A stretch of 64,000 nt of DNA. It comes from Thermoanaerobaculales bacterium (GTDB lineage Bacteria > Acidobacteriota > Thermoanaerobaculia > Thermoanaerobaculales > Sulfomarinibacteraceae). The notes under the pieces are model-generated. The model was not told the DNA's origin and made no database searches. It worked only from the letters and a program-made list of their open reading frames with translations. Position 1 is the stretch's first letter. The number at the start of each line of letters is the position of its first letter. The stretch covers positions 1 through 64,000 of the forward strand of contig JALOLD010000004.1 in assembly GCA_025456145.1 (NCBI GenBank), read 5' to 3'. The translations under genes were made by a program, and so were the position numbers. Shown here in pieces: positions 40,635-51,017 of the stretch.

Positions 40635-45408
<4,774 letters not shown>

Positions 45409-45419
45409 AAGGAGCGACC

Positions 45420-45635
45420 ATGGAGATTCCCGGCAAGGTCTCCGTCTACTGTCCGTTGATCGACGCCAAGGGCACCGCGGCGACCCTGCTCGCGATCGCG
45501 CCGCAGGGCTACTACCATCTCGAGGTCGAGATCCGGGGCCGCCGGCATGCCATGTTCCTCCCGATCGCCCACACCGCGATGTACTTCGCCGACGCCGAGC
45601 CCGAGGTCGAGCAGGGGTTCGAGATCGAGAGGTAG
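45420..45635 (+). CDS. Small conserved-looking protein of unknown function (71 aa)
   Basis: I do not recognise this 71-residue soluble protein. It has alternating beta-type segments (GKVSVYCPLIDAKGTA, YYHLEVEIRGRRHAMFL) and an acidic end (EPEVEQGFEIER), suggesting a small beta-barrel or PilZ-like fold. AAGGAG at 45409-45414 places the start at ATG 45420; a GTG at 45405 overlaps the preceding stop. Codon use matches its neighbours. It lies between an intact sigma-54 activator and a decayed one and may be co-transcribed with the former. Confidence 0.7.
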   Translation: MEIPGKVSVYCPLIDAKGTAATLLAIAPQGYYHLEVEIRGRRHAMFLPIAHTAMYFADAEPEVEQGFEIER

Positions 45636-45707
45636 CCGGGGCGATCCGCGGGAATCGACGCTCCGGTACCGGCGAATAAGCGCTCCGCAGGCCGTGTTAC
45701 GAGAGGC

Positions 45708-46859
45708 GTGACCGGGTCAGGCGATCTCGAGCGGATCCTCGCGACGAGGTGGTCGGAGGTGCTGCAGCGCGTCGACGACGCGGTGCTGATCCTCGATCAC
45801 GAGCGGGTCCTCAGGTTCGTCAACGGCCCGGCGCAACGGCTGCTCGGCTACGCCGAGGACCAGACCGTCGGCGGTCGCTGCCGTCTGACGACCCGCGGGG
45901 TCGATTGCGAGCGGGCCTGCCCCCTGACCTTCGCGCTCGAGAGCGACCTCGAGCGAGTCGAGGACTTCGCGACGGTGTACCGGGCGAAGGACGGCCGGGC
46001 GGTGCCGCTCAACGTCACGGTCATCCCCCTGCGCGACGACGACGGCGCCTTTCTCGGGGCGGTCGAGATCCTCCGCCCGAGGGGTCCGCAGCCCGGCTTC
46101 TTCCTGACCGGCTCGTCTCCCGCCATCCGCTCGCTGAGGGCGCGGCTGACCCGCCACGGTCGTGAGCGGACCCACCTGATCCTGGTCGGCGAGCGGCCGG
46201 TGTGCCGGGACCTCGCCCGCGCGGTCCATCGCTTCGCCGGGCTGCCCGACGAGCTCTTCGAAGCGTGGAAGGGGTCGTGGTCGACGGTCGCCGTGTGGCC
46301 GCCGGGCACCGCCTACGCCGACGGCGACGCGGCCGGGTTGTTGCTCGCCGAGCCGCCGCCCGAGGGCTGGCAGTTGGTCGTCGGTGTGGACCCGGGAGCT
46401 CCGTCGATCGGCGGCGCGATCGCCGCGGAGGTGGTCGAGCTGCCGAGCGTCGAGGATGTCGCGGGCGACGTCGACCTCATGGTCGCCGCCTGGATCGACG
46501 CCCTCGCTCCGGGTACCGCGGTGACCCCGGCGGCGCTGCAGCGGCTCGCCCGGGTCGCCCGCGGCAGCGGCTTCGAAGGCCTCGAGAGGGCGTTGGTCGC
46601 GGCGGTCGCCGTCGCCGACGGCCGGATCGAGGAGGTGCACGTCCCGGCGGACGGCTACAGCTCCCACCTGGTCGACGAGCTCCTCCAGGCCGCCGACCCG
46701 CTCGCCGCGTTGGAGTGCCGTCTGCTCACCGAGGTCCTGCACCGCAGCGGGTGGCGGATGCAGGAGGCGGCCGACCGGCTCGGCGTCTCGCGGGTTACGC
46801 TGTGGCGGAAGCTGAAGGACCACGGGATCGAGCGCCCGAACGGCAGCGGCGAGACCTAG
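45708..46859 (+). CDS. PAS/Fis regulator with decayed sigma-54 AAA+ domain
   Basis: The 383-residue protein has an N-terminal PAS domain (about 12-130) whose C-rich segment GGRCRLTTRGVDCERACPL resembles the cysteine cluster of sigma-54 activator PAS domains. The middle aligns by eye with an AAA+ domain (GSSPAIRSLRARL, then HLILVGERPVCRDLARAVHR). The GxxxxGK Walker A, the GAFTGA loop and a normal Walker B are missing, so it should neither hydrolyse ATP nor activate sigma-54. The C-terminal Fis-type helix-turn-helix (AADRLGVSRVTLWRKLKDHG) is intact. It starts with GTG. It is probably a DNA-binding sensor or repressor derived from an activator. Confidence 0.8.
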   Translation: MTGSGDLERILATRWSEVLQRVDDAVLILDHERVLRFVNGPAQRLLGYAEDQTVGGRCRLTTRGVDCERACPLTFALESDLERVEDFATVYRAKDGRAVPLNVTVIPLRDDDGAFLGAVEILRPRGPQPGFFLTGSSPAIRSLRARLTRHGRERTHLILVGERPVCRDLARAVHRFAGLPDELFEAWKGSWSTVAVWPPGTAYADGDAAGLLLAEPPPEGWQLVVGVDPGAPSIGGAIAAEVVELPSVEDVAGDVDLMVAAWIDALAPGTAVTPAALQRLARVARGSGFEGLERALVAAVAVADGRIEEVHVPADGYSSHLVDELLQAADPLAALECRLLTEVLHRSGWRMQEAADRLGVSRVTLWRKLKDHGIERPNGSGET

Positions 46860-46921: not shown

Positions 46922-47656
46922 ATGGCGCCAGCCCACCCCGCCCACGATCCGATTCGCCTGCTGATCGTCGACGACGACGAGCACCTTGCCCGAGGTCTGT
47001 GCAAGAACCTCGAGATCGAGGGCTTCGAGACCGCGAGCGTGGGCAGCGCCGAGGCGGTGCTCGCGGCGCTCGGTGCAGCGACCCGAGAGCCCGATCTCCT
47101 GATCCTCGACATCATGCTGCCCGGCATCGACGGCCTCGAGGTCTGCCGCCGCCTGCGCAACGCCGGCAGCTCGATCCCGATCCTCTTCCTGACCGCCCGC
47201 GGCAGCGACGCCGATCGGATCCTCGGCTTGCGCCTCGGCGCCGACGACTATCTGACCAAGCCGTTCGTCGTCGAGGAGCTGGTGCTCCGGGTCCGCGGCA
47301 TCCTGCGGCGCACCGCCTGGTCGCGGTCGCCGCTCCAGACCTCCCCGGTGGTCGAGGTCGGTCGGTGGCAGGTCGACCTTTCGACGATGCGGGCCTCGAC
47401 CCGGCAGGGCGAGGTCTCGTTGACCGAGCGCGAGGTCATGCTGGTCCGCTTCTTCGCGGAGAACGACGGTCGGGTCCTGAGCCGCGGCGAGCTGCTCGAG
47501 ACGGTGTGGGGCTACACCTTCGACACCGCCACCAGGACCCTCGACACCTTCGTCCACCGCCTGCGCAAGCACTTCGAGGAGGATCCCCGCCACCCGCGCC
47601 ACTTCCACACCGTCCGCGGCGTCGGCTATCGCTTCACCGGGACCGCCGAGGACTGA
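46922..47656 (+). CDS. OmpR/PhoB-family response regulator
   Basis: The 244-residue protein has a receiver domain (acidic pocket VDDDEH, phospho-Asp in LILDIMLPG, Lys in YLTKPF) and a winged-helix DNA-binding domain (about 145-240). The recognition region is TRTLDTFVHRLRKHFEEDP, followed by RGVGYRF. No histidine kinase follows, so it is an orphan here. TACAAT at 46904-46909 lies 12 nt before ATG 46922, with no Shine-Dalgarno sequence. Confidence 0.94.
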   Translation: MAPAHPAHDPIRLLIVDDDEHLARGLCKNLEIEGFETASVGSAEAVLAALGAATREPDLLILDIMLPGIDGLEVCRRLRNAGSSIPILFLTARGSDADRILGLRLGADDYLTKPFVVEELVLRVRGILRRTAWSRSPLQTSPVVEVGRWQVDLSTMRASTRQGEVSLTEREVMLVRFFAENDGRVLSRGELLETVWGYTFDTATRTLDTFVHRLRKHFEEDPRHPRHFHTVRGVGYRFTGTAED

Positions 47657-48236: not shown

Positions 48237-48260
48237 GCACCGACCGCCACGCCTCGGGTG

Positions 48261-51017
48261 ATGCCCGTGGACCTCGAGCGGCGGCTGATCGGGTGCCTCG
48301 CCTGGGCGGTGGCGGCGGCCGTCGCGGCGGTCGCCGTCGCCGGGCCGGCCGAGCACGACCTCGAGGTCCTCCGGTCGACCCTTCCCGCCACCATCGACAC
48401 CGCCGCCGATCTCGAGGTCGAGCTCGAGATCGCGAACCGCGGCCGCGTGGCGTGGTCGGCCGAGCTCGGCGACGCCGTGGCCTACCACTGGCTGGGCTCG
48501 GACGGCGAGGTCGCGGTGTGGGACGGCGATCGCAGCCCGATCGGTGAGGCCCTCGAGCCCGGACAGAACGCGGTCCTTCCCGCCAGGCTCCGCGCCCCGA
48601 GCCGCGCGGGCGACTACTGCCTGCAGTGGGACGTCGTCCGCGAGGGTGTCCTGTGGGTCTCCGAGGTCGACCCGACGCCGGTCCGTTGTCAGCCGGTCGA
48701 GGTGGTCGCGACCCACGCCTTCTCGCTCATCTCGGTCGATGTGCCGCGGGTCCTGGCGGCCGGCGGTCGTCGGCCAGCGACCGTGATGCTGCGCAACGAC
48801 GGCAGCCGGACCTGGCCGGCCGGGAGCACGGTTGCGCTGGCCTGGCACTGGCTCGACGGCGTCGGCGATGTCGTCGAGTGGGAGGGGGCGCGAGCGACCG
48901 TCGACCGGGTCGTTCCCCCCGGCGCGACGGTCGAGCTCGAAACCGGGGTGAGGGCGCCGGAGCGGGCCGGCCGCCTGCGCCTGGTGTGGGACATGGTCGA
49001 CGACGGGGTCTGCTGGTTCTCCGAGCGCGACCCGACACCGGCGGAGGCGCTGGTCGTGCTGGTCGTCGGTCCGTCCGCGGCGGCCGCTCTGTGGACCGCC
49101 CTGGTCGCGGCGGCGGCGATCGCGGCCGCGATCCGTGGCCGGCGGCGTGGCCGGCTCCGCGGGACCTGGGCGCTGCTCGACCTCGGCTGGCTGGTCGGCG
49201 CGGTCATGATCCGCCAGGCGTGGGTGCTCGCCGGGGGCGGGCACGGGCTGTCGGTCTCCGGCTGGTGTCTTGCCGGCGCCTCGGCGGTGGCCGGCTCGGC
49301 GGTCCTGCTCGGCGTGCGCGACCGGGTCCGCCCCTGGGTGGTCTGGGTCGTCTCCGCGGCGATCACCGCGCTGCTCTTCGCCGACCTCGTCCACCTTCGC
49401 TTCTTCTCCGATCTCGTCTCGGTGGCGGGCCTGCGTTCGGCGGGCCAGCTCGGACAGATCGGGAGCAGCGTCCGGAGCCTGCTCGAGACCGGCGACCTCT
49501 GGTTCTGGGCCGACCTGCTGCCCGGTCTCGGGCTGGCCTGGGCGGTCGCCACCTTCGGCCGGGGCGGCGCCCGGCGCCGGCGGGCGGCGTTCGGTGCGGT
49601 TGCCGTGGCCCTCGGTCTCGCCGCCTGCGGCCTCGTCACGGTCGACCGCGGGCTGTCATTGCGCCAGCTCTTCCACGCCACCGAGGCGGCGCGCCGGGTC
49701 GGGGTGCTCAACCTGCACGCCGCCGATGCCGGCGGCGCGGTGCTCCGTCGCCTGATCCGGCCCGAGCTCGGTGAGGCCGAGCTCGCCGGGGTCGTCGGCT
49801 TCTTCGACCAGCGGCGCCCGCTGCGCGCCGGCGCCGGGCCGCTCGCCGGCGCGGCGAGCGGTGACAACCTGCTGATGATCCAGGTCGAGTCGCTGCAGGG
49901 CTTCGTCGTCGGCCTCGAGATCGGCGGACGCGAGGTGACCCCCACCCTCAACCGCCTGGTCGCCGAGGGCTTCTGGTTCGCCAACGTCACCGACCAGACC
50001 GAGGAGGGCCGGTCGTCCGACGCCGAGCTGTCGACCCAGACCTCGCTGCTGCCGCCGGACCGCGGCGCCGCCGCCTTCCTCTACGCCGGCAACCGCTTCA
50101 CCGGTCTCGCCGGTGTGCTCGGCGAGAGCGGCTACGCGACCCTCTCGGCGGTGCCCTTCGACGGCGGGTTTTGGAACCGCCGGGCGACCCACCGGGCGTA
50201 CGGCTTCGCCGAGAGCCTCTTCGCCGAGGACTTCGGACCGGGCGAGACCGTCGGCTGGGGGCTCGACGACCGCTCGTTTCTCGTCCAGGCGGTCGACCGG
50301 CTGGCGAGGTTGCCCGAGCCGTGGTGCGGTCTGCTGCTGACCCTGTCGCTCCACCACCCCTTCGACGGATTCCCCGACCACCTCAAGACGATCGACGTGG
50401 GCGGGGCCGAAGGGACCCCGTACGGGAACTTCCTCCACACCATGCACTACTTCGACCGGGGGCTCGCGGATCTTCTCGCCGCTCTCACCGAGCGGGGGCT
50501 CGCCGACCGGACGGTGATCGCCCTGTGGGGCGACCACGACGCGGGGTTCGAGTGGGGTCCCGAGCTCGCCCGGACGACCGGTCAACCGGCCGACCCGGTG
50601 GGCTGGTACCTGAGCCAGCAGGTACCCTTCGCCATCCGGGTCCCCGGGCTCGCCGGACCAGGGGCGCCGCTCGCCGTGCCGGCCGGCCACGTCGACGTCG
50701 CGCCGACCCTGCTGGCGCTGCTCGGGGTCGACCCGGCGCCGCTGCCGCTGATCGGCCGCAACCTGCTCGGCGAGCCGGGAGCGGGCCCGGTGGTCGGCGA
50801 GTACCGGTGCTTCAGCGATGCGACCCATCTCTTCCTGAGACGCGGCCCCGAGCTCGCCGACGGCGAGTGCGTCGAGCTCGCCACCCTCGCCCGGGTCGAG
50901 CCGTCGGCCTGCGCCGACGGGTTCGAAGCCGCGCGGCGCCAGGTCGAGATTTCCCGACTGGTGCTCGAGCACGATCTCCAGGTGCGGATCCGCGCCGCCC
51001 TCGACCGCCAACCTTGA
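48261..51017 (+). CDS. LtaS-like phosphoglycerol transferase fused to two Ig-like domains
   Basis: The 918-residue membrane protein starts with a hydrophobic signal-anchor. Two tandem beta domains follow (about 35-145 and 150-260), each with the pattern W-x-A/P...YHWL/WHWLDG...G-Y/R-L-W-D-x-V and ending [10 protein letters not shown] or WFSERDPTP. They resemble NBR1-like Ig domains. About five transmembrane helices follow (270-465), then a sulfatase-fold domain with MIQVESLQ, a nucleophile region [10 protein letters not shown] and WGDHD. It resembles lipoteichoic-acid synthases and phosphoglycerol transferases, but the nucleophile Thr appears to be Ser. It is probably an envelope glycan or lipid modifier. 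GTG 48258 directly precedes the chosen ATG. Confidence 0.82.

Follow-up and report, generated by a model that had tools for sequence, protein, structure and literature searches.

The gene at positions 45708–46859 of the window, by which we mean the whole stretch of 64,000 nucleotides analysed (contig JALOLD010000004.1 of a sediment-dwelling Thermoanaerobaculales bacterium), encodes a protein laid out like a sigma-54 activator with a decayed ATPase motor. Is it a dying gene, a competitor of the complete activator lying next to it, or a working regulator of another kind? Most likely it is a sigma-54-independent one-component regulator.

Domain layout and the decayed motor

The open reading frame starts with GTG, encodes 383 amino acids and runs without disruption. 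Its features are as follows:

45708–46859, + strand: motor-less PAS – degenerate AAA+ – HTH_8 regulator (open reading frame, Pfam, orthologs, dN/dS)
45741–46082, + strand: PAS domain, residues about 12–125 (Pfam PAS_9/PAS_4/PAS; model against PAS structures, Z about 11–12)
45879–45920, + strand: Cys triad C58-x8-C67-x3-C71 (spacing identical across orthologs, intact sisters and other PAS activators)
46089–46673, + strand: degenerate AAA+ domain, residues about 128–322 (ZraR/FleQ profile matches, AF2, fold comparison)
46188–46211, + strand: Walker A remnant GERPVCRD, opposite GESGTGKE (alignments)
46305–46322, + strand: Walker B remnant GTAYAD, opposite GTIFLD in L138 (alignments)
46701–46820, + strand: Fis-type HTH (HTH_8), residues 332–371 (Pfam, 1.5e-13; genome search)
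46788–46811, + strand: recognition helix SRVTLWRK (comparison with orthologs, sisters and the HTH_8 proteins of the genome)

The earlier note on this DNA had described a preserved PAS domain with three Cys, a preserved Fis-type HTH and an AAA+ part lacking Walker A, GAFTGA and Walker B. All of this was borne out. PAS_9 matched residues 24–123 with 3.7e-12, C58, C67 and C71 are present, and the Cys triad and the HTH are conserved in the orthologs. The C-x8-C-x3-C spacing was found in 15/15 degenerate orthologs, 11/11 intact sisters and 14/14 other PAS activators compared, all of them rows found with a profile that itself holds these Cys. The triad is thus not special to the decayed protein.

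The loss of motor motifs goes further than the note had it, with the arginine finger and sensor II replaced too. In a profile–profile alignment with the intact sisters (probability 100, E 1.9e-43), GERPVCRD stands opposite the Walker A motif GESGTGKE, both inner Gly and the Lys being replaced, and GSWSTV opposite GAFTGA. Further along, GTAYADG aligns with the Walker B motif GTIFLDE, GAPSIGGAI with the arginine finger FRRDLFYRL, and SGFEGL with the sensor II motif GNIREL. Walker A is replaced in 15/15 orthologs and GAFTGA is present in 0/15. The distance from the lost P-loop (VG[ED]) to the lost Walker B (PxG) is 35 residues in 13/13 rows examined. Parts of the dead domain remain, namely the strand and the helix surrounding the former P-loop, an LP....DLP element and the helices of the lid.

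Between the PAS and the HTH the protein is of AAA+ origin, though there was no AAA family among the 14 Pfam families listed for the regulator up to E = 1. The NCBIfam models DhaR, ZraR and NtrC matched the lid and the HTH, the best with 7e-12 and far under their cut-offs. A profile of ten orthologs, compared with PDB sequences, matched ZraR (5.1e-10) and FleQ (3.2e-8). An AlphaFold model built on the ten-sequence alignment had a mean pLDDT of 81.7 and a pTM of 0.58. Its confidence fell below 50 at residues 57–65, around the first Cys; in the degenerate AAA+ domain, ten-residue means were 80–95, except for 75 at 231–240 and 61 at 311–320. Model residues about 126–318 aligned with the AAA+ domains of FlrC, FleQ, LuxO, NtrC1 and VpsR with Z scores of 12–13.6, in a comparison that re-examined a Foldseek list headed by NtrX (5.1e-8). 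Slightly lower scores went to other AAA+ proteins (11.7 for Tip48, 11.3 for both paraplegin and replication factor C). Since these score nearly as high, the fold alone says AAA+, and it is the sequence matches that say bEBP (sigma-54-dependent enhancer-binding protein). The dead region is predicted to retain the AAA+ fold of sigma-54 activators, with a best Z of 13.6.

Distribution, selection and origin

The earlier note had taken a lack of orthologs with the same truncated ATPase as the sign of a recent pseudogene. Such orthologs exist: 15 of 20 family genomes, the source genome included, have a full-length one with the same motif losses, and G012 has a further copy, a fragment split over two frames where its contig ends; the gene is therefore not a recent pseudogene. 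The ortholog of G004 runs into a contig end. In the 20 genomes searched, no copy was found in G005, G011, G018 and G019, which are 95, 100, 79 and 65% complete, respectively. The near-complete G005 and G011 show that the regulator is dispensable.

Carriers include Candidatus Sulfomarinibacter kjeldsenii, a member of Ca. Sulfomarinibacteraceae (FEB-10 in GTDB), which falls in the class Thermoanaerobaculia of the Acidobacteriota; it is these relatives that place the window in this family. A single-protein scan of genome contigs gave ten loci, namely nine full-length orthologs and one HTH-only match in Sphingomonas. Outside the family, no full-length degenerate ortholog was found in 396 phylum genomes, a weak absence, as the genomes were drawn evenly and at most four candidates were scored in each. 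Two candidates for further motor-less forms, in G135 (405 aa) and G223 (225 aa), were rejected, the profile matching only their PAS part; read by eye, both frames run from the PAS into a GGDEF-looking domain.

Ortholog frames are open down to about 42% identity to the window protein. By the Nei–Gojobori method, seven ortholog pairs gave dN/dS of 0.13–0.19 over residues 12–376 and 0.14–0.31 over the dead AAA+ domain; several of the dS values exceed 1 and are unreliable, and the closest pair (dS 0.16) gave 0.19 overall and 0.22 for the dead domain. The earlier note had looked to orthologs for signs that the loss is selected, and such signs are present: the orthologs share the loss, dN/dS lies far under 1, and conservation extends to the three Cys and to the HTH. 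Mean pairwise identity in the degenerate group is lowest in the AAA+ domain (41%, vs 55% in the PAS and 72% in the HTH), whereas in the intact sisters the AAA+ domain is the most conserved part (73%, vs 55 and 69%). This is expected once the motor constraint is gone; the domain is still not free. G161, H174-R175, W221 and A261-W262 are invariant in ten sequences. The gene looks like a repurposed regulator, kept intact by relatives, apparently only to sense and to bind DNA, and not like a dying gene.

As for its origin, a phylum search recovered PAS-AAA+-HTH proteins in two other Acidobacteriota families (f16 and f42), with 12 genomes matching. Eleven complete intact sisters were used, and the match in G075, which was in pieces, was dropped. 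All 11 carry GESGTGKE and GAFTGA. In a full-length tree of 48 proteins, the degenerate group formed one clade (support 100), sister to the intact clade (96). In a tree restricted to the PAS and HTH columns (40 rows), the clade that unites degenerate and intact proteins had support of 98/95. Tree rows were picked by similarity. The stem branch of the degenerate clade is long, with 1.97 changes per column in the full-length tree, and for this reason the sister relation rests largely on the PAS and HTH columns.

The intact activators of these two families resemble the regulator in PAS Cys spacing, domain order and recognition helix: SRVTLWRK is found in 15/15 degenerate and 10/11 intact proteins, the eleventh reading SRITLWRR. 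They differ in keeping an 18-letter set of protein motifs (not shown) together with GN[IV]REL, and in length (452–497 residues in their open frames, vs 383). The trees fit one motor loss; both descent from an intact activator and its horizontal transfer fit them. No intact sister was found in the same class among 147 genomes, with at most 11 candidates scored in each; the best reached 443 bits, against 811–871 for the 11 rows that built the profile, values that are high by construction. The genome encodes sigma-54, so the motor loss is not due to its absence. When seven window genes were searched in the 11 sister loci, only the NtrC-type gene and the regulator matched, both at the sister itself; the context of the sister loci therefore gave no function. 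Genes around five of the intact sisters include SelB-like frames, as judged by eye.

Descent from a sigma-54 activator, with all motor motifs replaced and with the predicted fold, the sensor and the recognition helix retained under purifying selection, is supported. The conserved motor-less offshoot of enhancer-binding proteins is real.

Upstream element, neighbours and recognition helix

Around the regulator gene we recognized:

43996–45408 (stop included), + strand: complete NtrC-type response regulator with intact motor motifs (Pfam, motifs)
45420–45635, + strand: conserved small protein of 71 aa, often linked to the regulator, between the NtrC-type gene and the regulator
45674–45698, + strand: conserved GAAT-N18-GTT element, promoter-like, 9 nt ahead of the GTG
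46922–47656, + strand: OmpR-type response regulator (Pfam, locus survey)

GAAT-N18/19-GTT was found 8–11 nt before the start codon first used in 14/15 orthologs, and in the fifteenth 9 nt ahead of a GTG farther upstream. G010 and G014 retain it too, although their regulator gene sits apart from the 71-aa ORF. The background of such matches was about 0.08 per kb per strand in the loci scanned, the conserved sites included. The Streptomyces SigR consensus has been given as GGAAT-N18-GTT (PMC2375139); the element is alike, but at this locus it has CGAAT where the consensus has GGAAT. This suggests a putative ECF-type promoter, and the closeness of the element to the start codon suggests a leaderless mRNA.

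In the genome, GAATRA-N14-16-TGTTA occurs once, and GNGAATA-N17-GTT three times: at the regulator locus, on contig C41, with no start codon 8–11 nt after it, and on contig C109, where it ends 19 nt before a GTG that is a possible start of an exonuclease-III-like frame (by eye). The genome holds two SigH-like ECF sigma genes (182 and 164 bits, below the curated cut-off of 251.55), and neither locus has GAAT-N17-19-GTT or a zinc-type anti-sigma motif just downstream. A sigmaR-type regulon was considered and set aside, with no regulon or matching sigma/anti-sigma pair found in the genome; the ECF reading thus draws on motif, position and conservation, and is a lead.

The neighbourhood survey took in 15 loci from genomes other than the source, 14 with a full-length ortholog and one with the fragment of G012. 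In 13/15 of them the 71-aa ORF precedes the regulator, and the 71-aa gene is present in 18/20 family genomes, including the regulator-less G005 and G011. Its product had no Pfam or NCBIfam match; the model has four strands (AF2 mean pLDDT 76) and gave no significant fold match (best E 0.11). An NtrC-type gene was found upstream in 10/15 loci; of the other five, two are cut off by the end of the contig and three leave enough space for it. The OmpR-type gene was found in eight loci, on the opposite strand in six of them. Given this loose gene order, the regulator looks like a unit of its own, loosely tied to its neighbours. Farther along the window, downstream of an OmpH-like gene, 48258–51017 encodes a protein of 919 aa in which Pfam recognises a sulfatase domain and, twice, the Ig-like domain N_BRCA1_IG.

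The complete NtrC-like activator placed upstream by the earlier note is there, ending 299 nt before the regulator gene. It has a REC-AAA+-HTH layout (Sigma54_activat 8.7e-71), with motor motifs of 19 protein letters (not shown). The suggestion that the decayed protein competes for the same DNA sites is not supported, as the recognition helices differ (SRVTLWRK in the regulator vs GLRTLQRK in the neighbour) and two genomes uncouple the genes. In G009 the regulator gene is present with no NtrC-like gene in the 6 kb upstream, and in G011 the NtrC-like gene is present and the regulator absent. The two proteins share 12 identities in a 21-residue HTH stretch, as many as the regulator shares with L055 and with L056. 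In enteric NtrC, R456, N457 and R461 contact DNA. At what we take to be the R456 and N457 positions, the regulator and its neighbour differ. These helix comparisons make a competitor at the neighbour's sites unlikely. SRVTLW stands in 1/21 HTH_8 proteins found in the genome, the regulator itself, the nearest other helix being SRKTLWEK in L055. An unseen partner with the same helix is possible, the genome being 92% complete.

Likely mode of action and related proteins

We consider it probable, with the mechanism that follows counted in, that the protein arose from an intact PAS-type sigma-54 activator and is now a stable one-component transcription regulator specific to this lineage; this is the best explanation of the data. 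Sequence, predicted fold and tree support a change on the family stem in which the AAA+ domain gave up its ATP site, the GAFTGA loop that contacts sigma-54, the arginine finger and sensor II, while a compact AAA+ fold, the Cys-bearing PAS sensor and a Fis-type HTH with the sisters' recognition helix were kept. The product would lack ATPase activity and bind DNA as a dimer through the HTH, with the PAS domain altering either DNA binding or contact with RNA polymerase, and the dead AAA+ domain may serve as a rigid linker or dimer platform. Such a protein could presumably not open sigma-54 promoters, which would make it either a repressor or, at promoters of the sigma-70 or ECF type, an activator. 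A leaderless ECF-type promoter of its own probably drives the gene.

A bolder form of this explanation, possible and yet unlikely in our view, is that sigma-54 activators turned into motor-free, thiol-responsive one-component regulators, re-using ancestral enhancer sequences as operators at sigma-70/ECF promoters. The gene would then stand under a sigmaR-like ECF promoter, and the ATPase fold would be only a signal-relay scaffold in a redox circuit.

Other readings give the protein a different role or none. The dead AAA+ domain might be the true sensor, for a nucleotide second messenger or a partner protein, leaving dimerisation to the PAS domain. Purifying selection on this domain and its invariant residues fit such a role, and, according to one report, Arg residues of the VfmH AAA+ domain bind c-di-GMP and FleQ is a c-di-GMP effector (PMC10714721); the PAS domain is, however, better conserved than the dead AAA+ domain (55 vs 41%), and we think this rather improbable. 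We are more doubtful of a dominant-negative competitor, which would occupy the enhancer sites of an intact activator, in the first place the NtrC-like neighbour, or form mixed oligomers there, and so repress it. The NtrC-like gene does lie upstream in two thirds of the surveyed loci, and the retained recognition helix is one used by intact activators, albeit of other families. Yet the neighbour's helix is different, no other HTH_8 protein found in the 92%-complete genome has SRVTLW, G009 and G011 separate the two genes, and mixed rings are unlikely with the inter-subunit AAA+ motifs replaced.

A pseudogene, recent or slow, would be an activator decaying without function. The replacement of every motor motif, the long stem branch, the absence from two near-complete family genomes and the two-frame fragment in G012 could be read in this way. 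Against it stand the frames open in 15 orthologs, the low dN/dS, and the conservation of fold, Cys triad, recognition helix and upstream element, and we regard it as highly improbable.

Precedents exist for bEBPs that act without the sigma-54 loop. According to two papers (PMC10274813, PMC6375630), GAFTGA-less bEBPs act at sigma-70 promoters, namely Escherichia coli TyrR, the NtrC proteins of Rhodobacter capsulatus and Caulobacter, and Vibrio cholerae VpsR. In the first of these papers (PMC10274813), R. capsulatus NtrC must bind ATP but need not hydrolyse it, Caulobacter NtrC depends on its Walker A and B residues, and VpsR (printed VspR) reportedly works without ATP. The regulator shares with these proteins a bEBP architecture without the sigma-54 loop and a recognisable bEBP descent; it is unlike the NtrC proteins of R. 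capsulatus and Caulobacter in that the nucleotide site, the arginine finger and sensor II are also replaced. VpsR, described as having no need for ATP, is the nearest functional precedent. One report states that Caulobacter NtrC variants without GAFTGA promote sigma-54 genes (PMC12421884). The loss of GAFTGA alone is therefore no proof of sigma-54 independence; here, the ATP site is lost too.

In the titles and abstract openings searched, mostly from non-subscription journals, we found no bEBP described as having lost both Walker motifs (A and B) along with GAFTGA. The known GAFTGA-less activators lost one loop, and two of them, by the accounts above, still need ATP binding or Walker residues; here the replacement extends to every motor motif, selection maintains the carrier fold, and there are intact sisters with almost the same recognition helix. 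The two groups thus show the protein before and after the loss, a natural comparison in which to ask what such a protein can do once its motor is gone and whether the ancestral enhancer sites found a new use. For annotation, the warning is that counting sigma-54 activators in these bacteria by HTH_8 or "Fis family" alone gives too many.

Other altered bEBP-like proteins are encoded in the same genome. Two PAS activators (L044 and L045; G000:C1:76725-78014 and G000:C14:22616-23917) have GAFTDA in place of GAFTGA. They share the PAS Cys spacing with the regulator and differ from it in keeping Walker A and B, in their helices (HPSTLFRK and HPTTLRRK) and in falling into a separate clade. GAFTDA has also been noted in VfmH (PMC10714721).

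Motor loss looks recurrent in this lineage. Outside the window, at G000:C1:120287-121156 (L170, also locus L061), there is a second bEBP-like protein with a decayed motor, having CGRPGSGR for Walker A, VVLRDV for Walker B and no GAFTGA. The AAA+ domain has decayed in a third protein too, the HTH_8 protein L058 (around G000:C71, 7668–7787, also outside the window), which has GERGAGCS for Walker A, VVLDH for Walker B and no GAFTGA. The N-terminus is FHA-like by eye in both. Matches of the L170 type were found in 20/20 family genomes. In the eight such loci that were read, GAFTGA was present in 0/8, and seven had an Arg at the position expected for the Walker A Lys, the eighth having no match to the pattern.
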